Notes under the pieces: model-generated
The model's input: only the letters and a program-made list of their open reading frames with translations
What the model was told of the DNA's origin: nothing
Databases searched by the model: none
Shown: one piece after another, positions 22,843 to 32,279 of the stretch
How positions within the stretch are numbered: position 1 is the stretch's first letter
Layout: each line of letters starts with the position of its first letter
Position numbers and translations under genes: made by a program
Origin: Rheinheimera texasensis DSM 17496
GTDB lineage: Bacteria > Pseudomonadota > Gammaproteobacteria > Enterobacterales > Alteromonadaceae
Reading direction: 5' to 3'
Assembly: GCF_000711985.1 (NCBI RefSeq)
Contig: NZ_KL544007.1
Coordinates: forward strand, 124,001 to 188,000
DNA: 64,000 bases

Positions 22843-22882
22843 GTCCCGACATGCGCCTGTTGCTTGCGGCGCATGTCGGGAC
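22843..22882. repeat. 15-bp perfect inverted repeat upstream of sulfotransferase gene
   Basis: GTCCCGACATGCGCC (22843-22857) and its exact complement GGCGCATGTCGGGAC (22868-22882) are separated by 10 bases. No T-run follows, so it is not a standard terminator. It lies 14 bp after the receptor 2 terminator and 35 bp before the start codon of the next gene, where it could fold in the mRNA leader or act as an operator. Confidence 0.8.
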
Positions 22883-22917
22883 ATCAGCAATACCGTCTTT
22901 CCTCAGTTGGAATTTGT

Positions 22918-24516
22918 ATGTCTTCAGAAGTGTTGTCGTCTTTTCTCCGTTATTTGCCGCAAGCCTATCAGGCATTACGCCAGCAGCAGTTTCAGTGGGT
23001 AGATGGTTTTTTACAGCAATATCAGCTGGACCATCCGCAGTGGCGACAGCTGGCGCTGGAATTAGCACTGCAGCGGCATGATGATTCGAGAGTTTTGCAA
23101 GTGTTTGCTTTGATTTGCCGTCATGCTGACGAACAGGGGCCGGCCGCACTGCGGCTGGCCCAGTATTATCTGGCGGAGCGGCGCCGACAGGATTGTCGGC
23201 AGGCGCTGGCTTTAGTGACAGAGACACCGGTGCAGGATGCTGGTTTTTATCGTGCGGTAGCGGCGGTCTTCAGTGGGTTGGACGACCCGGCAGCAGCTTT
23301 ACCCTGGCTGGAACAGGCAGTGGCCTGGGCACCGCAACATACCGGCCTGCGATTTGATTTAGCTCTGGCGCAGTTTTTCTTAAATCAAATGACAGCGTCG
23401 CGCAGTAATCTGGCACTGGTGCTGGAACAACTACCTCTGGCCGGCAACGTGTTGCATCTGCGGTCAGCGACACAGACAGCTACTGCTGAACACAATCACA
23501 TCGCAGATCTACGCCAGCGACTGGCGCAGCCTTCATTACAGCCGAAAGATGCCGTAGGCGCAGGCTATGCGCTGGCGAAGGAACTGGAAGATACTGGGCA
23601 ATATGCCGCAGCATTTGCCGCCCTGCGTCAGGCAGCCACCCTAAAGCGTCAGCAGTTGCAGTACGACGCCGCGACAGAGTTCGCTACTTTTGCTGCAATG
23701 CGCCAGCATTTTAATGAAGACTTTTTTGCCCACTCCGAACCAGTCTCTGCCGCTGATACAACGTCAACGCTGCGGCCGATTTTTATTCTGGGCATGCCAC
23801 GCACCGGCACGACTTTGGTTGAACGTATTCTTGGCCAACACCCTGACGTGGTGTCTATTGGCGAGTTCCCGGATTTCCCGCTGGAAGTGGCGCTGGCGGC
23901 GCGGCAGGTACAAGGCCGGCAGTCACTGGTGGAAGCCGCGCTGCAGCTGGATTATCCGGCACTCGGCGAGCGTTATCTGCACCAGGCTGCGTCAATGGCG
24001 CAGGGTAAGCCTATTTTCATCGATAAACTGCCGTTTAACTTTATTTATGCCGGCCTGATTAAAAAGGCGTTGCCACATGCGCGGATCATTCATTTAGTCC
24101 GAGATCCACTCGACACCTGTTTTGCCATTTATAAAACTTTGTTTAATCAGGTTTATTCGTTTTCATATCAGCTCGACGAACTGGCTGATTATTTTATCGA
24201 ATACAAAAAGCTGATGGCGCACTGGCATCAGGTACTGCCAGGACAGATACTCGATGTGCATTATGAACAGGTTGTTGCAGCGCCTGAGCAGCAGGCAAAA
24301 CGCATTCTGGATTGGTGTGGATTGCCGTGGCAGCAGGATTTGCTGGCCTTTCACCAGGCGAAATCCGCTTCCACTACGGCCAGTGCTGCTCAGGTGCGTC
24401 AACCCATTCATCAAAAGTCCGTGCAAAAGTGGCGGCAATTTGCTGATGAACTACAGCCAGTGCGCGAGCGCCTGTTTGCCGCAGGTTTGATTGATGCAGA
24501 GGGCAATCCGGTCTGA
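22918..24516 (+). CDS. TPR-repeat sulfotransferase family protein
   Basis: A 532-aa protein with an N-terminal tetratricopeptide-like helical region (about 1-250) and a C-terminal sulfotransferase domain (PF13469-like). The PAPS 5'-phosphosulfate loop is PIFILGMPRTGTTLVERIL (GMPRTGTT at 292-299) and the 3'-phosphate motif is HLVRDPLDTC (Arg395). No signal peptide is visible. Family members transfer sulfate from PAPS to tyrosine, sugars or other acceptors; the acceptor is unknown. The frame opens earlier at 22864 inside the inverted repeat; I chose ATG 22918 (MSSEVLSSFL). The neighbours are two TonB receptors and a convergent 2OG oxygenase, whose stop lies 6 bp away. Confidence 0.88.
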   Translation: MSSEVLSSFLRYLPQAYQALRQQQFQWVDGFLQQYQLDHPQWRQLALELALQRHDDSRVLQVFALICRHADEQGPAALRLAQYYLAERRRQDCRQALALVTETPVQDAGFYRAVAAVFSGLDDPAAALPWLEQAVAWAPQHTGLRFDLALAQFFLNQMTASRSNLALVLEQLPLAGNVLHLRSATQTATAEHNHIADLRQRLAQPSLQPKDAVGAGYALAKELEDTGQYAAAFAALRQAATLKRQQLQYDAATEFATFAAMRQHFNEDFFAHSEPVSAADTTSTLRPIFILGMPRTGTTLVERILGQHPDVVSIGEFPDFPLEVALAARQVQGRQSLVEAALQLDYPALGERYLHQAASMAQGKPIFIDKLPFNFIYAGLIKKALPHARIIHLVRDPLDTCFAIYKTLFNQVYSFSYQLDELADYFIEYKKLMAHWHQVLPGQILDVHYEQVVAAPEQQAKRILDWCGLPWQQDLLAFHQAKSASTTASAAQVRQPIHQKSVQKWRQFADELQPVRERLFAAGLIDAEGNPV

Positions 24517-24522
24517 CTGGAT

Positions 24523-26352
24523 TCAGACCGGCATGATGTCGCAGGGGGCGGTCATGCGGTAACTGTTGCCTGCAGCGCTTTTAAACGGATAGGTGCCATG
24601 CCAGACAAAACTGGGGAATAACACCACCAGGCCCGGTTCCGGGCAAATCGCCTGCGCCACTTGTTCATGCTCACCAAGGTGCAGGGAAGTTTCGCCAAGT
24701 TTTAACCAGCCTTGCCGGTGCAGGTCGTCCGGCCGGATGCAGTCCGGTAAGTCGAGATAGGTACATGCTGACAACCAACCTTGCGGATGCACATGGTTGG
24801 TATGAAAGCCCTCATTGCCAAGACGCACTGACCAGCTGCCGGAGAAACGAAACTTGCCGGTGTTACGGCAAAGTAGTGGATGTTGCGCGTCAATTGGCAG
24901 CCGCCGGAGATACTCGTTGATGCGTTGTTCCAGTGCGGCGCGAAATTGCTGGATCACCGGATCAGGCTCTGCTAACAGCCTGCCGAGCGTTTGAGTTCCG
25001 CCGCGCACACTCTGATCTAAAGGCTGACGTGTGCTGGTGTGCAGTCGCCGGATCACCGGGTTTAGGACCGCCAGAAATTCTGCCAGATTTTGATAACCGG
25101 CTGGTGTCGGCAACGGCCTTGCGTCGATCAATGAAGAGTAGTTATTCAGCCAGTGGTTTTTTTCATCGCCCTGTAAGCGCCAGCATGTACCTAAATAGGC
25201 CCAGATCTCCTGGTCGTGTGGACTGAGCTCTTTAGCCTGTTGCAACAGCTGTTCAGCCTGCGCCGGTTGCTGTTGCCGGATAGCGTAATTGGCGGCGTCT
25301 ATCAATGCCCGAACCCGAAATGCCGGTGGCATCTGCTGTTGTAAGGCTTCAGCGGTCAATACGGCTGCACCTGCCAAATCACCTTGTTTTGCCAGCTGAA
25401 CGCCGAGTGCATGCAGCAAATCCGCCTGCCGGCCATGCAATACGATGCCATCCTGTAACAGCTGCGTGGCCGCCGGATCGTCACCAGACTGAATTAATAG
25501 TGTGGCCAGGGCGTAACGCAGGTTCAATGCTTGCGGATTTGCTGCCAGTGTCTGTCGGGTTAGTTGCAGGAATTTCGCCAGATCTTGCTGCTGCCAGTAC
25601 AGCTGATTCAGTGCTTCGTGCGCACCGATATGCAGCGGTTGCAGGGTTATCGTCTGCAATAGCGCTGCTTCGGCGCCTGCGTCATTGCCTAAATCATGTT
25701 GCAGACAACCCGCCATAAAATGGAATTCGGCCTGTTCTGGTGTAGTCGTCAGCAGCTGATTAATAATGTCTGCTGAAGCCGCGGCTTGTAGACTTTCCCG
25801 CAGCAGCTGGGCTTTTTGCCAGAGTAGCTGTGTCTGTGCCGGCCAGCGTGTCAGCGCTTGGTCCAGCAGCTGCAATGCGGCATTGACCTGTTCAAGCTGT
25901 GCCAGGCAACTGGCCAGTGGTGCATAACAACGTGAGTCATCCGGGCGCAGTTGCAGTGCTTTTTGCAGTCTGTCTTTAGCCAGTTGCGGTTGTTGCTGAC
26001 GCATTGCCAGCAGACCGGCATTGAGCCAGCTGTCGGCCTGATTTGGTGCAAGTTGCAGGGCCCGCTGATAGGCCTGCTCTGCGGCTTCATGTTGTTCAAG
26101 CTGTTGTAACAAATTGCCGTAATTCGACCAGACCGCACTTTGTGTGGGCGCGGCCTGCAGACTGCGTTTGAAATATTGCAGCGCCTGATCGGGCTGGCCT
26201 TGCTGCCGGGCACACAGCGCCAGCAGATGCAGCGCATCCGGCTGTTCCGGCTGCAACTGTAACGCCTGCAGCGCTAACTGCATGGCACGGGCCTGCTGGC
26301 CCTGGCTAAAAGCGGCAACTGCCGCCTGGAGGATTTGCTGAGCGTGCATCAT
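24523..26352 (-). CDS. TPR-repeat 2OG-Fe(II) oxygenase family protein
   Basis: A 609-aa cytoplasmic-looking protein. About 400 residues of Gln/Ala/Leu-rich tetratricopeptide repeats (for example NYGNLLQQLEQHEAAEQAYQ) lead into a C-terminal domain of the putative 2OG-Fe(II) oxygenase type (PF13759-like, about 490-609). Candidate iron and cofactor residues are the GFHTNHVHPQGW cluster (His517-His522), His585 in FVWHG and Arg599 in SYRMTAP; which of the clustered histidines binds iron is not settled by sequence. Likely activity is hydroxylation of a protein or small molecule. It is convergent with, and probably functionally paired with, the TPR-sulfotransferase. Confidence 0.85.
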   Translation of the reverse strand: MMHAQQILQAAVAAFSQGQQARAMQLALQALQLQPEQPDALHLLALCARQQGQPDQALQYFKRSLQAAPTQSAVWSNYGNLLQQLEQHEAAEQAYQRALQLAPNQADSWLNAGLLAMRQQQPQLAKDRLQKALQLRPDDSRCYAPLASCLAQLEQVNAALQLLDQALTRWPAQTQLLWQKAQLLRESLQAAASADIINQLLTTTPEQAEFHFMAGCLQHDLGNDAGAEAALLQTITLQPLHIGAHEALNQLYWQQQDLAKFLQLTRQTLAANPQALNLRYALATLLIQSGDDPAATQLLQDGIVLHGRQADLLHALGVQLAKQGDLAGAAVLTAEALQQQMPPAFRVRALIDAANYAIRQQQPAQAEQLLQQAKELSPHDQEIWAYLGTCWRLQGDEKNHWLNNYSSLIDARPLPTPAGYQNLAEFLAVLNPVIRRLHTSTRQPLDQSVRGGTQTLGRLLAEPDPVIQQFRAALEQRINEYLRRLPIDAQHPLLCRNTGKFRFSGSWSVRLGNEGFHTNHVHPQGWLSACTYLDLPDCIRPDDLHRQGWLKLGETSLHLGEHEQVAQAICPEPGLVVLFPSFVWHGTYPFKSAAGNSYRMTAPCDIMPV

Positions 26353-26439
26353 CTACACTGAATTCAAAACAGAATGGCACTAAATTAACAGAAAAACAGC
26401 CAGAGCGGCCAGCGCGTCGCGCCGCCCTTATGCAGGATG

Positions 26440-26817
26440 TCAGCAACAGGCCCGGTTCCTGCTCTCCTGTTGCAAGCGTTCACAACGTGCGCAACGTTGC
26501 CGCGCCGGGTCTTGCTGCAACAGTTCGCGTTCGATCCGGGCTTCGCAGTCGGAGCACAGGCCGTATAGTCCCATATCCATTTGACTGAGCGCAGCCTGCA
26601 CCAGCTCCAGCCGGCGGGTTTTCTGTTCCAGCTCTGGTGTCAGCCAATGCCTTAGTAGCTCAGGCCAGTGGCTGAGCGCCTGATGTTCTAATTGCAGTAA
26701 CAGGTGGTCAAATTCGCCGGCATGGTCACGTTGCAGATAGGCAAAAATGTCCTGACGCAGCTGCTGAAGTTCCTGCTGTAACTGACCACGTAATTCCGGA
26801 ACGAGCGACTTATGCAT
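26440..26817 (-). CDS. TraR/DksA-type zinc-finger protein
   Basis: A 125-aa protein with a helical coiled-coil-like N-terminal two thirds and a C-terminal C4 zinc finger of the DksA/TraR family: GLCSDCEARI then QRCARCERLQQE (C-x2-C ... C-x2-C). It is shorter than DksA (about 150 aa) and its N-terminal region is divergent, so it is a DksA-like paralogue rather than DksA itself. Such proteins bind the RNA polymerase secondary channel. It is divergent from the hvfA-like gene; they share a 284-bp promoter region. Confidence 0.85.
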   Translation of the reverse strand: MHKSLVPELRGQLQQELQQLRQDIFAYLQRDHAGEFDHLLLQLEHQALSHWPELLRHWLTPELEQKTRRLELVQAALSQMDMGLYGLCSDCEARIERELLQQDPARQRCARCERLQQESRNRACC

Positions 26818-27038
26818 AACATCCTCAGCGGTGAAAGAAGAATGAACCTGCAGTGTGGCAAAAGCCGATGGTTGTTGTGCTGATGCAGATCAAAGCAGGT
26901 TACGGTAGCCGTAAAATTTCTGCTGTCGCCTTTCGTCACGGCCTGCTCCCCGCTGAGCGCGTGGTAAAGCTTCCTTGCATTGCAAAATTTTACTATGCTC
27001 GGCGGAAATAAATTCCACATAACCACGGTCTGGTGTGA

Positions 27039-27061
27039 TATCGGTCGGTCATAAACCGATA
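27039..27061. repeat. 7-bp inverted repeat in hvfA leader region
   Basis: TATCGGT-N9-ACCGATA, 41 bp before the hvfA start codon. It could be an operator or a leader hairpin. No regulator could be assigned. Confidence 0.3.
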
Positions 27062-27101
27062 AAACAAACCAAATGAGTGATACAACAAAAGGATAAAGCA
27101 G

Positions 27102-27470
27102 ATGAATCAACAGCAAAAAGTCAAAGCAGCCTTAGGTGGTCTGATGTTGTCAGCCCTTGCCGGTTTAAGTGGTACAGCACAGGCGTTTCAGGCGACTGAA
27201 CTGAGCGCCGGATATCAGCAAACGCCGGATGGTGCAGCGCAACAGGCCTCAGATCCAAAAGCAGCTGAAGAAAAAGCCAAAGAAGGTAAATGTGGCGAAG
27301 GCAAGTGTGGCGAAGGCAAATGCGGTGGCGATAAAAAAGCAGCTGCGGGTGCTGACAAAGCCAAAGAAGGGAAGTGTGGTGAAGGGAAGTGCGGCGAAGG
27401 TAAATGTGGTGGCGATAAAAAAGCGGCCACTGATAAATCCAAAGAAGGCAAATGCGGTGGCATGAATTAA
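27102..27470 (+). CDS. hvfA: HvfA-like EGKCG-repeat copper-binding peptide precursor
   Basis: Precursor of a ribosomally made, post-translationally modified peptide, 122 aa. The Sec signal peptide cleaves around AQA/FQ (residue 28). A conserved ATELSAGYQ stretch follows and may be the recognition element. A Lys/Ala/Glu linker then leads to seven EGKCG motifs in groups of 3, 3 and 1 (Cys64, 69, 74, 92, 97, 102, 118). All seven cysteines of the protein lie in these motifs. In Haemophilus HvfA, the DUF692 enzyme converts such cysteines into copper-binding oxazolone/thioamide groups. The modifying genes follow 1 bp and 0 bp downstream. Ribosome-binding site AAGGATAAAG precedes the ATG. Confidence 0.9.
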   Translation: MNQQQKVKAALGGLMLSALAGLSGTAQAFQATELSAGYQQTPDGAAQQASDPKAAEEKAKEGKCGEGKCGEGKCGGDKKAAAGADKAKEGKCGEGKCGEGKCGGDKKAATDKSKEGKCGGMN

Positions 27471-27471
27471 G

Positions 27472-28314
27472 ATGCCAAAACTAAAAGGGGTGGGGCTGGG
27501 GCTTCGGCGCGAGTTGCTCGCCCCTTTATTACAAAGCGGACAACAAAGTGGGCACGGCATCGATTTTATCGAAGTGGCGCCGGAAAACTGGATCCCCTTC
27601 GGCGGCTCGCTGCGCCGCCAGTTTACTGAGATTGCATCGCACTACCCACTGATCTGCCACGGTCTGTCTTTGTCGATCGCCGGGCCTGATCCTTTGGATC
27701 TGCAGTTTTTGGCGCAGCTGAAGCAGTTTTTCCGTCAGCATCAGGTACTGCTTTATAGCGAGCACCTGAGTTACTGCTCCGGACAGGGCCATTTGTATGA
27801 TCTGATGCCGGTGCCGTTTTGCCCGCAAGCCATTGATTATCTGGTGCCACGCATCCGGCAGGTACAGGATGTGCTGGAACAGGAGCTGGTGCTGGAGAAT
27901 ATTTCTTATTACGCCACGCCAGAGTCGACCATGACTGAGCTGGAGTTTTTGACTGAGGTGTTAGAAAGGGCCGACTGTGGCCTGCTGCTGGACGTCAATA
28001 ATATCTATGTCAATTCCATCAACCACGGTTATGACGCCACCGCGTTTTTGCGGGCGCTGCCAACCAAGCGCATCCGTTATGGCCATGTCGCCGGTCACCT
28101 GCAGCAAAGCTCGGATTTGTTAATTGATACCCACGGCAGCGCAGTCAATGACCCGGTCTGGGCGTTACTCGCCGAAGCATACCGCTGTCATGGCGTGTTT
28201 CCGACGCTGCTGGAGCGTGATTTTAATCTGCCGCCGCTGGCTGAATTACTAACTGAGCTCACGCAGATCCGTCAGCTGCAGCAAGAGAATGCTATGACGC
28301 TGGGAGCATGTTGA
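27472..28314 (+). CDS. hvfB: HvfB-like DUF692 multinuclear non-heme iron oxidative enzyme (MNIO)
   Basis: A 280-aa TIM-barrel enzyme of the DUF692/MNIO family (MbnB, BufB, HvfB), which binds two to three irons and four-electron-oxidises cysteine in a peptide substrate. Family landmarks are GVGLGLRRELL, IDFIEVAPENW, HGLSLSIAG, YSEHLSY, LENISYY, LLLDVNNIYVNS, YGHVAGH, DTHGSAV and LLERDFN; these carry the His/Asp/Glu/Asn iron ligands. Its ATG is 1 bp after the precursor stop codon. The EGKCG precursor places it in the Hvf (oxazolone/thioamide) branch rather than the bufferin or methanobactin branches. Confidence 0.93.
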   Translation: MPKLKGVGLGLRRELLAPLLQSGQQSGHGIDFIEVAPENWIPFGGSLRRQFTEIASHYPLICHGLSLSIAGPDPLDLQFLAQLKQFFRQHQVLLYSEHLSYCSGQGHLYDLMPVPFCPQAIDYLVPRIRQVQDVLEQELVLENISYYATPESTMTELEFLTEVLERADCGLLLDVNNIYVNSINHGYDATAFLRALPTKRIRYGHVAGHLQQSSDLLIDTHGSAVNDPVWALLAEAYRCHGVFPTLLERDFNLPPLAELLTELTQIRQLQQENAMTLGAC

Positions 28315-29051
28315 TGCAGGAATTTCAGCAACAACAACTGGCGTTTATCCGCCGGATTAAAGACCCGTCAGCGCCACTGCCCCCCGGCATCAGGCCGGAA
28401 CGAATGGCTGTTTACGAAGAGCTGTTTTTCAACAACGTGCAGAATTTTGTCAGCAGCGCTTTTCCTGTGTTGCGCTCCTTGTTGCCAGACACACAATGGC
28501 AAGCACTGTGCAGGCAGTTTTTCCGCGACGCACAGTTACACAGCCCGTATTTTCTCGATATTTCCAAAGCATTTTTGCTGTGGTTGCCAGAGGCGGCCTC
28601 GCAGTTGCCTGGCTTTGCGCTGCAGCTGGCCGAATACGAATGGCTGGAGCTGGCACTGGCGACAGATCTGGCAGTCGCACCTGTGGGGTGGTCATTTGAT
28701 CCCGACCGTATTTTAGCGATGTCGCCACTGGTACGACTCTGTTGTTATCAATATCCGGTGCAGCAAATTTCCTTGCAGTTTCAACCCACAGAGCCTGCCG
28801 CGCAGCCGGTGTTTTTGCTGTTGTACCGCGATGAACAGGACAGAGTCCGCTTTTTGCAACTCAATGCCTGGAGCGCTGCTTTGTTGCAGTTGATCACAGC
28901 AGAGCCGGGCCAGCATCTTGGCACTTACATCGACTGGTTGCAGCCTTATGTACCAGAGTGGAACAACCAGCAGCTGTTATCACAGGCCACCCCGCTGTTG
29001 AGCGATTTTGCCGCCCGTGGCATTGTTGTCACAGCGGATGGAAAATCCTAG
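28314..29051 (+). CDS. hvfC: HvfC-like DUF2063 partner protein
   Basis: A 245-aa DUF2063-type protein that partners the DUF692 enzyme, probably delivering the precursor. Typical features are the N-terminal QQQLAFIRRIKDP, the MAVYEELFFNNVQNFVSSAFPVL region and SPYFLDISKAFLLWL. Start: ATGs at 28308 and 28314 are in frame; GGGAG (28302-28306) is well spaced only for 28314, which also gives TGATG coupling with hvfB. No DoxX-like membrane gene (HvfD/BufD) follows; instead there is a 133-bp gap and a 41-aa membrane protein. Confidence 0.88.
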   Translation: MQEFQQQQLAFIRRIKDPSAPLPPGIRPERMAVYEELFFNNVQNFVSSAFPVLRSLLPDTQWQALCRQFFRDAQLHSPYFLDISKAFLLWLPEAASQLPGFALQLAEYEWLELALATDLAVAPVGWSFDPDRILAMSPLVRLCCYQYPVQQISLQFQPTEPAAQPVFLLLYRDEQDRVRFLQLNAWSAALLQLITAEPGQHLGTYIDWLQPYVPEWNNQQLLSQATPLLSDFAARGIVVTADGKS

Positions 29052-29184
29052 CCACAACGAGCGCAAGCACCGGGAGTTCCGGTTGATTTTTTTCGGCGAA
29101 AAATGCCGCCGCTGACACCTACAAGCACTGGCTATTGCCAATGTTTTTCATTAAAATCGAGCCCCCTTATTTTGCACTGGAAAG

Positions 29185-29310
29185 ATGTCGATGGCAGACG
29201 AGAATTTTAAAGAATCCTTCAGCGTGTGGCATTTGTTAGGCTTTGTCGCTGTGTTTGTATTGCTGTTGTGCCAGCCACCACTGGTCACCTGGTTACGCAT
29301 CTTAGGCTAA
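29185..29310 (+). CDS. Small single-pass membrane protein (41 aa), unknown
   Basis: A reading frame of 41 codons, beginning MSMADENFKESFSVWHLLGF and ending in LVTWLRILG. It has a charged N-terminus, one hydrophobic helix (about residues 15-31) and a short tail. Two starts are possible (29185 and 29191). A ribosome-binding-like GGAAAG lies just upstream, and an intrinsic terminator follows 18 bp after the stop, which supports a real short transcript. It sits between hvfC and apt. I do not recognise the family. Confidence 0.55.
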   Translation: MSMADENFKESFSVWHLLGFVAVFVLLLCQPPLVTWLRILG

Positions 29311-29327
29311 GCCGGCTAACCAGACCG

Positions 29328-29353
29328 AAAAACCGCCTGCAGGCGGTTTTTTT
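29328..29353 (+). terminator. Intrinsic terminator after 41-aa gene
   Basis: AACCGCC-TGCA-GGCGGTT stem-loop preceded by A and followed by seven T (29347-29353). It separates the hvf/small-protein region from apt. Confidence 0.88.
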
Positions 29354-29379
29354 ATCGAATTGAATAAAGAGATTTTTCC

Positions 29380-29928
29380 ATGACGCATACCGAATTAAGC
29401 CGCGTACTTGAGCAAGTCATCAAGTCAGTACAGGACTATCCGAAGCCAGGTATTTTATTTCGTGACGTAACCAGTCTGATGCAGGACGGCGCTGCCTTTG
29501 CTGCTGTAATCGACCATTTGAAACAGCATTATAGTGGCCATGGCATTACGAAAATTGTCGGCACTGAATCGCGTGGTTTTATTTTTGGCGCACCTCTGGC
29601 TTATGCTATGGGCGTGGCTTTTGTGCCGGTACGTAAACCTGGCAAACTGCCCCGTGAAACCATTGCGGAAAGTTATCAGCTGGAATATGGTCAGGACACC
29701 CTGGAAATTCATCTGGATGCCATTACACCAGAAGATAAAGTCCTGTTAGTTGACGATTTATTGGCGACTGGTGGTACTATTGATGCCACAACCAAACTGG
29801 TACGTCGATTAGGTGGTCAGGTTGCAGACGCGACTTTTGTGGTGAATCTGCCGGATTTAGGTGGCCAGCAAAGGTTGGAAGCACTGGGTCTGACCATCCA
29901 CAGCCTGGTTGATTTTCCGGGTCATTAA
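29380..29928 (+). CDS. apt: Adenine phosphoribosyltransferase
   Basis: Purine salvage enzyme converting adenine and PRPP to AMP. At 182 aa it matches the family. The N-terminal [15 protein letters not shown] and the PRPP-binding motif [16 protein letters not shown] are intact. It opens the classical apt-dnaX-ybaB-recR gene order, with dnaX 53 bp downstream. Confidence 0.97.
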
Positions 29929-29981
29929 ACCCGGCCAGGCTGCAGGCACAAAGCCGGCGCAATTTCCGACAAGGTGAACAG

Positions 29982-32279
29982 ATGAGTTATCAGGTGCTGG
30001 CGCGTAAATGGCGGCCGCAAAACTTTGGTCAGCTGGTGGGGCAGGAGCATGTCAAAACTGCGCTGACACACGCGCTGACGCAAAACCGACTGCACCACGC
30101 TTATTTGTTTACCGGCACCCGCGGCGTGGGTAAAACCACCATAGCCCGCATCTTTGCCAAAAGCCTCAATTGCGAACAGGGCGTCACTGCGACGCCTTGT
30201 GGCATTTGCAGTGCCTGCACCGAAATCGACAAAGGCTTTTTCGTTGATTTAATGGAAATTGACGCTGCCAGCCGGACCAAAGTCGAAGATACCCGCGACT
30301 TGCTGGACAACGTGCAATACGCACCAACCCGCGGTCGTTACAAGGTTTATCTCATCGACGAAGTGCATATGCTGTCTAAACACAGCTTTAATGCGCTGCT
30401 GAAAACGCTGGAAGAACCGCCGCCGCATGTGAAGTTTTTGCTGGCGACCACTGATCCGCAAAAGCTGCCGATCACCGTGCTGTCGCGGTGCCTGCAGTTT
30501 AGCTTAAAAGCCTTATCGCAAAGCCAGATTAAGCAGCATCTGAGCTATATCCTCGGCCAGGAAGGCATTGCTGCCGAAGAAGAAGCGCTGGCCTTGCTGG
30601 CGCGTGCCGCCAAAGGCAGTTTGCGGGACTCGTTGAGCCTGACTGATCAGGCTATCGCCCAGACCAACGGCGACATCCGCCTTGGTGCCGTGCGCGAGAT
30701 GCTTGGCTTCCTCGAGCAAAGCTGGGCCGAAATTCTGCTGCAGGATGTACTGAACCGCGATTTAGCCGCAATGCAGGCGCATTTGCAGCAGCTTGTCAGC
30801 AGCCACAGCCATTTTCAGGCGGTGCTGGATGACATGTTGTCCTTGCTGCATCTGGCGGCGTTGTCACAGTATCAATTAAGTGCTTCTGAGCTGGCACTGA
30901 CTGAATCAGCTTTTGTCCGCGCTGTGGCGAAAACGCATGCGCCGGAAACTATTCAGTTGTATTACCAGTTATTGTTATCCGGCAAACGCGATCTGCCTTA
31001 TGCGCCAGAGCCGCGCATTGGCCTGGAAATGGCGTTATTACGCGCTATTGCCTTTGTGCCGGCCAAAGCCGGTGCTGTGCCGGAGGTGAGTGCAGGGCGC
31101 GCTGCTGCGTTGTCTGCTGCAATGTCGACAGCACAGCCGACTGCTGTGCCAGAGCAGGTGACTGCTGTAGTTGCGCCGGAAGCGAGAGCTCCGCAGCTGC
31201 AGGTCGCTCAACTGCAGCCGGAACCAGCGGTGGTTCCGCCAGTAGCCGAGTTGCCACCAGTTGTGCCTGAAGCTGAGCCAGTTGTAGTTCCAACATCAGA
31301 GAGCGGCATTGATTCGGTGACCGCCAGTATTCTGGCCCGTCGTGGTCTGCAACGCGCGGCGTCGAACGAGCCAAAAAAGTCTGAGCGCCAGCAGGCGCCA
31401 GTTTCATTACCACCCAGAGCGGCCATTGCGCCGGCAGTGCAGGCACAGCCTGTTTTATCTGCTGAGCCAACTGCAGTTGTCGCTGCTGTGCCGGCCCCGG
31501 TTGTTGCCAGCCTTGCGCTGACAAGCCCTGCAGAGATCCCGCCCTGGGAGGAATTGCCGGTAGAGCCTGCCGCGAGCGATATGGTTGAACTGCTGGACGA
31601 TGATGAGCCACAGCCTGCTGCACTGCTTATCGCAACCGCCACAGACGAAGACACAGATCCGGCCGACGGCAGCGAAACCACTGACAGCACTGAGCTGTGG
31701 CAATGGCAGCAGGACTATACGCCAGCACCGGTGCAGCCGATCCGCCACGCCTTGCTGGAAAGCCTGGCCGTACCGGACGAGCCGGACAATCTGGATTTTG
31801 CCAGTGAAGCCATTGCCGAAGTGGAAACGGTTGCTTCAACAGATGCTGATTTGCGGTTTGACGGCGAGATCCATGCCGGTAACTTTGCCGTACGCAGCAG
31901 CAGTCAGGTGGACGCATGGGCCAAGCGTATCGACAGTCTGCGTATCGGTGGGCTGATGCGGTTATTTTTACTGCACAGCAGCATGCAACTGACAGACGAT
32001 CATTTAGTGTTACAGGTCAACGCGACACAAAAACATCTGGATTCAGAGCGCAACAGAGCCCAGTTGCAGACGGTGTTGTCCGAATCTTTTGGCAGGCTAC
32101 TGACGGTGCAGGTGGAGTTTGTCGATGAAGTCCCGACCAGCCCGCAAGCGCTGCAACAACGCATCGATGCAGCGCGCCGGCGTTATGTGCACCAGCTGCT
32201 GCAGCGGGATCCGGCTTTATGCGGCCTGATGCAGGACTTTGCTGCCGAATGGCTGCCTGACAGCCTGGAAGTATTTTAA
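29982..32279 (+). CDS. dnaX: DNA polymerase III subunits tau and gamma
   Basis: Clamp-loader ATPase of 765 aa (tau form). Walker A is GTRGVGKTT, the zinc module is CEQGVTATPCGICSACTEI, and the DExx and sensor motifs are DEVHMLS and LSRCLQF. Domains I-III span about 1-365. A long Pro/Ala/Val/Glu-rich linker (about 365-635) follows, then the C-terminal DnaE/DnaB-binding domains. It is longer than E. coli tau (643 aa), mostly in the linker. An A AAA AAG slippery site at codons 464-466 predicts the shorter gamma form (about 467 aa). The gene lies within the apt-dnaX-ybaB-recR cluster. Confidence 0.96.
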   Translation: MSYQVLARKWRPQNFGQLVGQEHVKTALTHALTQNRLHHAYLFTGTRGVGKTTIARIFAKSLNCEQGVTATPCGICSACTEIDKGFFVDLMEIDAASRTKVEDTRDLLDNVQYAPTRGRYKVYLIDEVHMLSKHSFNALLKTLEEPPPHVKFLLATTDPQKLPITVLSRCLQFSLKALSQSQIKQHLSYILGQEGIAAEEEALALLARAAKGSLRDSLSLTDQAIAQTNGDIRLGAVREMLGFLEQSWAEILLQDVLNRDLAAMQAHLQQLVSSHSHFQAVLDDMLSLLHLAALSQYQLSASELALTESAFVRAVAKTHAPETIQLYYQLLLSGKRDLPYAPEPRIGLEMALLRAIAFVPAKAGAVPEVSAGRAAALSAAMSTAQPTAVPEQVTAVVAPEARAPQLQVAQLQPEPAVVPPVAELPPVVPEAEPVVVPTSESGIDSVTASILARRGLQRAASNEPKKSERQQAPVSLPPRAAIAPAVQAQPVLSAEPTAVVAAVPAPVVASLALTSPAEIPPWEELPVEPAASDMVELLDDDEPQPAALLIATATDEDTDPADGSETTDSTELWQWQQDYTPAPVQPIRHALLESLAVPDEPDNLDFASEAIAEVETVASTDADLRFDGEIHAGNFAVRSSSQVDAWAKRIDSLRIGGLMRLFLLHSSMQLTDDHLVLQVNATQKHLDSERNRAQLQTVLSESFGRLLTVQVEFVDEVPTSPQALQQRIDAARRRYVHQLLQRDPALCGLMQDFAAEWLPDSLEVF
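31373..31398 (+). other. dnaX: Programmed -1 ribosomal frameshift site in dnaX
   Basis: The slippery heptamer A AAA AAG (31373-31379) is in the same phase as in E. coli dnaX. After a -1 slip the next codons are GTC and TGA (stop at 31382-31384), giving gamma of about 467 aa. A 5-bp hairpin GCGCC-AGCA-GGCGC (31385-31398) starts 5 nt downstream. The Shine-Dalgarno-like stimulator seen in E. coli is not evident. Confidence 0.8.

Follow-up and report, generated by a model that had tools for sequence, protein, structure and literature searches.

The window analysed here, a stretch of 64,000 nucleotides from Rheinheimera texasensis DSM 17496, carries on its forward strand three closely spaced genes that resemble hvfABC. 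The first (27102..27470, +) is an hvfA-like gene for a precursor peptide of 122 amino acids, which scores 48.9 bits against the NCBIfam model NF050137 (KCGExKCG, HvfA-family domain; cut-off 19.5). The translated frame contains seven EGKCG motifs, at residues 61, 66, 71, 89, 94, 99 and 115, and its only cysteines, at positions 64, 69, 74, 92, 97, 102 and 118, all fall inside them, which bears out the initial annotation of a signal-peptide-bearing precursor with its seven cysteines in seven EGKCG motifs. From the sequence, a Sec signal peptide is predicted at the N-terminus (MNQQQKVKAALGGLMLSALAGLSGTAQA/F), comprising residues 1–28 (...GTAQA/F; 27102..27185, +). The repeats of the core region (27282..27458, +) are arranged as 3 + 3 + 1. 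When modelled by AlphaFold2 with a 22-row alignment, HvfA appears disordered (mean pLDDT 46, pTM 0.14), with a single helix at residues 3–20 predicted at low confidence; as no folded structure is obtained, the prediction for this precursor does not recover the published beta-helix.

The DNA copies of the pentapeptide differ on average at 2.5 of their 15 bases, and EGKCG is encoded every time. An 84-base unit (28 residues) is present in about two copies, with nine synonymous codon differences and four non-synonymous ones, every one of the latter in the linker. Because the motif copies vary synonymously only and the non-synonymous changes are confined to the linker, the repeats are not a product of chance; judged from the codons, selection maintains the EGKCG motif. 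Relative to the closest named relative among the best 80 of 577 (L080, MAG: Rheinheimera sp. isolate Bin_57_1, HvfB 94% identical), dN/dS is 0.019 for hvfA, 0.086 for hvfB and 0.121 for hvfC. Runs of at least three EGKCG motifs occur in 16 of the 62 precursors from the GTDB family of the source organism, this one included, doublets being the commonest form.

One base past the hvfA stop begins an hvfB-like gene (27472..28314, +), which encodes a MNIO (DUF692) maturase of 280 amino acids (PF05114, 349 bits; NF003818, 416.5 bits, cut-off 360). The start of the hvfC-like gene (28308..29051, +), encoding a DUF2063/RRE partner of 247 amino acids (NF050145, 260.4 bits, cut-off 142; PF09836, PF22106), lies within hvfB, with an overlap of seven bases. 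Coordinates, Pfam and NCBIfam agree with the 1-bp and overlapping junctions to DUF692 and DUF2063 genes that had been noted earlier. Whole-genome searches returned one EGKCG precursor frame, one MNIO and one HvfC match. HvfB is a relative of structure 3BWW (E 4e-75) and HvfC of structure 3DEE (E 1.7e-11). Four motifs of HvfB, GLRR (10–13), DVNN (174–177), DTH (219–221) and ERDF (248–251), may represent metal-site and substrate-site motifs that have been kept, and the last three align to identical letters in 3BWW. Residues published for HvfB (N175, D242, H244; PMC13419390) and for FonB (Asp249, Arg15, Arg16, Phe250; PMC12668002) are presumably equivalent to residues in these motifs, the correspondence being one of motifs and not of an alignment to either protein.

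A hairpin scan placed a terminator-like hairpin with a T run 17 bases past the hvfC stop (29069..29083, +); with eight such sites in the scanned stretch against 2.9 expected, several of them within genes, it is weak by itself. The next long gene on the same strand starts at 29380 and contains a phosphoribosyltransferase domain (Pfam). We take it to be apt and the gene after it to be dnaX.

Family assignment and related systems

The family models and the EGKCG count support the proposal that this is an HvfABC-like operon with up to seven sites. Whether the precursor belongs to the EGKCG family had been left to a profile search, the outcome of which is divided: HvfA lies inside the KCGExKCG domain family, as given above, and below the strict HvfA equivalog NF050188 (34.4 bits, cut-off 95), and because of the latter score it is not filed as HvfA sensu stricto. 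The MNIO is far under the cut-off of the methanobactin model TIGR04159 (45.3 bits, cut-off 325). The oxazolone/thioamide chemistry that had been assumed for the modified cysteines no longer holds, since the HvfBC product was reassigned to a 5-thiooxazole by the Haemophilus group (PMC13419390) as well as by others (PMC12668002). The predicted four-electron (4 H) loss per modified cysteine stands, as a 5-thiooxazole implies the same loss.

By its sequence, the operon joins the published oxazolin/captophorin family as a new member; about 2,000 EGKCG proteins were collected in published work (PMC12452194). Three genes and seven sites are not new, because fontiphorin and Microbulbifer mmrABC precede. 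The fonABC cluster of Fontimonas thermophila likewise consists of genes for a precursor, a MNIO and a PME1/DUF2063 protein, with EGKCG motifs and seven cysteines (PMC12668002, PMC13097082), and its product fontiphorin carries seven 5-thiooxazoles and binds copper (PMC12668002, published as PMC13097082). LysC fragments of FonA contain two, three and two modified sites (PMC12668002), whereas HvfA shows the 3 + 3 + 1 pattern. The mmrABC cluster also has three genes, with five to eight EGKCG cysteines; bulbicupramide is its copper-binding EGKCG product, for which the thiooxazole assignment is tentative, and the strain of that study has two-cysteine cassettes, unlike the arrangement found here (PMC12538549). 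One Microbulbifer locus that we examined has neither the promoter-like element described below nor an adjoining apt, both of which are present in R. texasensis.

With the hvfABCX cluster of H. influenzae, which yields oxazolin, the operon has in common the HvfB and HvfC families, the EGKCG cysteines and a Sec signal peptide; H. influenzae HvfA differs in having six cysteines in three doublets, and the DoxX-like HvfX encoded there has no counterpart here (PMC13419390, PMC7907618). The bufferins BufA1 and BufA2 have similar features, namely a Sec-exported precursor, a MNIO with DUF2063, and thiooxazole (PMC12452194). Unlike these, the precursor gave no DUF2282 match in the Pfam search, and the MNIO scores 271.6 bits against BufB (NF050167), under the cut-off of 310.

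A conserved leader motif

Immediately past the signal peptide, residues 29–38 (27186..27215, +) read FQATELSAGY. The motif FxxxxLxxGY recurs in the precursors of relatives and is a candidate recognition element for HvfBC. In the search form F-x4-[LM]-x2-[GA]-Y, immediately past the signal peptide, it is present in 126 of 131 hvfBC-associated precursors, i.e. 60 of 62 from the family, source included, and 66 of 69 from named relatives (best 80 of 577), against a background of seven matches in 2,714 other frames (272,116 residues). In the 22-row alignment F29 and Y38 are invariant. Nine of the 70 family loci yielded no precursor, several of them at a contig or flank end. The motif is missing from two family precursors, L020, which was read only in a short form, and L043, where N masks the sequence; the three named ones comprise two short readings and one with GF for GY. 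In the class set (30 loci, the best among 98 matching genomes of 369) the motif is found in 29 of 34 frames, the misses being three short fragments and two cases of F for L.

HvfA lacking its signal sequence was reported to receive <1 modification per peptide (PMC13419390), and fontiphorin tolerates single alanine changes ahead of the core (PMC12668002). This tolerance makes it less likely that any single leader residue is essential. The Microbulbifer study reports a conserved leader, and FxxxxLxxGY was not found named in that paper (PMC12538549).

Genomic context

The absence of a DoxX-type gene after the operon, remarked on earlier, is confirmed by the phosphoribosyltransferase gene in that position; the operon contains no DoxX, and three above-cut-off DoxX matches in the genome are on other contigs (C4, C5). 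Both seeds used in this search came from the source genome, and a remote DoxX could escape them. They do work, since they recover DoxX at nine of the 80 named loci and in one of the 71 family rows; L081, with a DoxX 2 kb off, is outside the nine named positives (best 80 of 577).

A match to HvfC is present in 102 of the 147 genomes of the source's GTDB family, above the cut-off in 70. In the 71 rows formed by 70 family loci and the source, apt lies within 1 kb after the operon in 62 and DoxX follows in one, the flank being only about 1.5 kb for 30 of the 70 family loci. Among the named relatives (best 80 of 577), 51 loci are apt-adjacent, nine DoxX-adjacent, none both and 20 neither, and DoxX in 0 of the 51 apt-adjacent loci corresponds to a Fisher p of 4e-5, uncorrected for kinship. 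The apt-adjacent loci belong to Rheinheimera, Pseudoalteromonas, Shewanella, Ferrimonas, Neiella, Paraglaciecola, Planctobacterium and one Marinobacter-labelled record. Absence of DoxX is usual in the source's lineage, where the operon mostly precedes apt-dnaX. Because apt-adjacency and DoxX absence recur across relatives, the DoxX-less operon ahead of apt-dnaX looks like an old, mostly vertically inherited arrangement. A word search of the Microbulbifer mmr paper (PMC12538549) gave no mention of phosphoribosyltransferase or DNA polymerase. In its hvf-apt-dnaX layout the record titled Marinobacter nauticus DP3N21-5 (L103) closely resembles Ferrimonas balearica DP5N7-6 (L102); a mislabelled record or a transfer is possible.

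A promoter-like element and the possible trigger

Upstream of hvfA lies the element GGAAAT-N17-GGTCT (27004..27031, +), which is kept in relatives. Of 104 hvfA upstream regions, source included, each with a leader-motif precursor and at least 300 bases upstream, 69 contain the form GAAA-N16-18-GGTC; 20 shuffles gave a mean of 1.4 and a maximum of 4, and the reverse strand gave 0. These counts are not independent, since some species may be in both the named and the unnamed set. Positions that were not part of the search are also kept, with T preceding GAAA in 63 of 69 and following GGTC in 65 of 69. The element is rare upstream of other genes (apt 0/51, hvfB 0/71, hvfC 0/80, dnaX 3/51), and among the named relatives (best 80 of 577) with a readable region it occurs in 40 of 44 apt-adjacent loci versus 4 of 24 others. 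With its two fixed boxes and a variable spacer the element resembles an ECF promoter, and the sequence suggests that the element is a promoter for an ECF sigma factor.

Within the source genome, none of the 14 sigma-70 region 2 loci could be linked to the element: a looser GTC match lies within 350 bases upstream of three, GGTC upstream of none. Across this genome the promoter pattern, in a form looser than the one given next, shows no enrichment (19 matches versus 47 in the reversed control); besides the hvfA site, four matches (L270, L272, L278, L279) are outside same-strand long frames. A stricter form, TGAAAT-N16/17-GGTCTA, likewise gave 97 matches versus 93 in the reversed control over 59 family genomes, in 47 of which it occurs. 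Of 40 listed sites of this form that were cross-tabulated, six are within 4 kb of an hvfC; the cross-table lacks two sites of G022, both >400 kb from the hvfC of that genome. The source site (GGAAAT...GGTCTG) itself is outside the stricter form. Rfam gave no match in 26000–30000, and in 26800–29400 the sigma-70 consensus gave two sites on the minus strand (2.1 expected by chance) and none on the plus strand upstream of hvfA.

The H. influenzae hvf cluster is dependent on the ECF factor RpoE2 and induced by hypochlorite (PMC7907618), and Caulobacter DUF692/DUF2063 genes are under ECF sigma-F (PMC3511200); neisserial sigma-E has a different -35 and spacing, with CGTCTAA as -10 (PMC2893595). The Microbulbifer mmr cluster, which is without DoxX, was undetected in proteomes with or without added copper, and its authors are hesitant about a copper-protection role (PMC12538549). 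Copper stress, the inducer originally suggested for an expression test, may therefore be the wrong one, given RpoE2 and hypochlorite in H. influenzae, the undetected Microbulbifer products and the ECF-like element here.

Proposed function

We propose that these three genes are an HvfABC-type RiPP cluster for a Sec-exported, Cu(I)-binding thiooxazole peptide whose synthesis is driven by an ECF factor, and estimate the probability of this explanation as a whole at about 0.85. HvfA would be made as a Sec signal peptide followed by the FQATELSAGY recognition motif and the seven EGKCG sites. The leader would be bound in the cytoplasm by HvfC (RRE domain) together with HvfB, a putative multinuclear iron oxidase, and the two proteins would convert as many as seven cysteines into 5-thiooxazoles by oxidation, each site losing 4 H (~4 Da), for a total of ~28 Da. 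The product would then be exported and probably bind Cu(I) in the envelope. Transcription would probably depend on an ECF sigma factor that senses oxidative or metal stress of the envelope, not on a dedicated copper regulator. Homology supports the family and the expected chemistry well; the copper handling and the trigger are what we infer beyond this.

Orphan EGKCG proteins

An EGKCG protein might also work unmodified, as a thiol-rich periplasmic sink for metals or oxidants, with modification by HvfBC being optional. The 147 family genomes include 110 with the EGKCG domain and 108 with a MNIO, and 22 have the domain without a MNIO (no PF05114 match at E up to 0.001). At least 90% completeness applies to 18 of these 22 genomes; the other four are less complete, which counts against the idea. 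Thirty orphan loci were read, 22 from the MNIO-free genomes and 8 from the 20 genomes with some MNIO and no above-cut-off HvfC; since the latter hold some MNIO, modification in trans is possible in these eight. The orphan precursors retain the repeats and a signal-peptide-like N-terminus, N/T/S-PF is found in 28 of 30, and all but one of the 30 loci have the promoter-like element (29 of 30; 50 shuffles: mean 0.3, maximum 2). The leader motif was found in 0 of 30 precursors, two of them masked by N, hence in 0 of 28 readable ones. The set, picked by protein domain, took no part in defining the element, although one member, G012, was first noticed through the element. The orphan loci (L309-L338, L303-L306) have no adjoining hvfBC, lack the leader motif and have the same element. 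The precursor is at the apt site in 13 of 30 orphan genomes examined; away from this site, the element travels with the orphan gene.

A DnaX tree was built from 32 of the 40 long-flank hvf loci plus the source, 26 of the 30 orphan loci and 14 chosen loci without precursor. Left out were four orphan loci with too little DnaX, the 30 short-flank hvf loci and eight long-flank ones, six of which are not apt-adjacent and two of which (L052, L058) are apt-adjacent but were dropped; compared with the orphan set used for the element and leader counts, G013, G061 and G001 replace G057, G076 and G120. With midpoint rooting, 26 orphan and two precursor-less rows form one branch (100/100), which joins the source's clade less firmly (96/79). 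Since the orphans form one DnaX branch, their clade may reflect a single enzyme loss, the direction of which depends on the root.

For R. texasensis itself the unmodified sink is unlikely. The orphan genomes, being 26 of the 28 rows of one branch, perhaps record one evolutionary event, and modification is to be expected here because purifying selection acts on an intact hvfBC and the precursor has the leader motif. Earlier work found EGKCG without MNIO in 67 of 2,583 genomes and considered that such precursors may be unmodified (PMC12452194); an orphan clade, a kept promoter and a lost leader motif were not found described in that source. A broader idea, for and against which we see even odds, is that EGKCG proteins lead two lives under one stress promoter. 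In most lineages FxxxxLxxGY, at the mature N-terminus, would recruit HvfBC as the docking site for HvfC, and the cysteines would become thiooxazoles. In one large related clade the enzymes would have been lost, probably once, the motif would have decayed, and many genera would have kept an unmodified thiol protein under this ECF-type promoter; the smallest unit with a function would then be the thiol repeat itself and not the thiooxazole.

Taken alone, the operon adds another captophorin cluster to those known. The conserved ECF-like element offers a testable handle on what activates such clusters when copper does not, FxxxxLxxGY, missing where the enzymes are missing, one on maturase recognition, and the naturally enzyme-free EGKCG proteins a control for what the modification contributes.

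That the product is a released chalkophore for copper acquisition, comparable to methanobactin, is highly improbable: EGKCG products do bind Cu(I) (PMC12668002) and the methanobactin MNIO is a distant relative of HvfB (45 bits; structure 7DZ9, E 1e-14), but the TIGR04159 score is far too low, the operon is without a further gene fit as transporter, receptor or protease, and in published cases such clusters are induced by metal excess or by oxidants (PMC12668002, PMC7907618, PMC3511200).

Neighbouring open reading frames

An unannotated frame at 29185-29310 (+) encodes a 41-residue membrane protein with a single helix and an FK-E/D-x-F motif; it has no Pfam match and one NCBIfam match far under cut-off. 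In the apt-adjacent named relatives listed, hvfC and apt flank it, as they would a fourth operon gene replacing DoxX, but a profile built on it matches 127 of 147 family genomes versus 70 with above-cut-off HvfC, and the terminator-like hairpin separates it from hvfC. Moreover, apt adjoins it in 30 of 30 loci, eight of them without hvfB/C, and then in 20 of 20 further loci without hvfB/C. Because of this adjacency even where hvf is missing, the frame belongs to the apt-dnaX site, and a role as DoxX substitute, for which we see hardly any chance, was rejected.

Some further observations concern neighbouring or related loci. A same-genus genome (G111) contains a second hvf locus (L071, 5758-6408, -) with four EGKCG motifs in its precursor, the C-terminal part of which reads as EF-hand-like (DTDDDS..., DVDQNG...), like a published fusion type (PMC12452194). 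Upstream of the operon in the window, a divergent TraR/DksA-type zinc-finger protein, under family cut-offs, is encoded at 26440-26817 (-), and a TPR-sulfotransferase gene (22864-24516, +) converges with a gene for a TPR/2OG-Fe(II) oxygenase (24523-26352, -).
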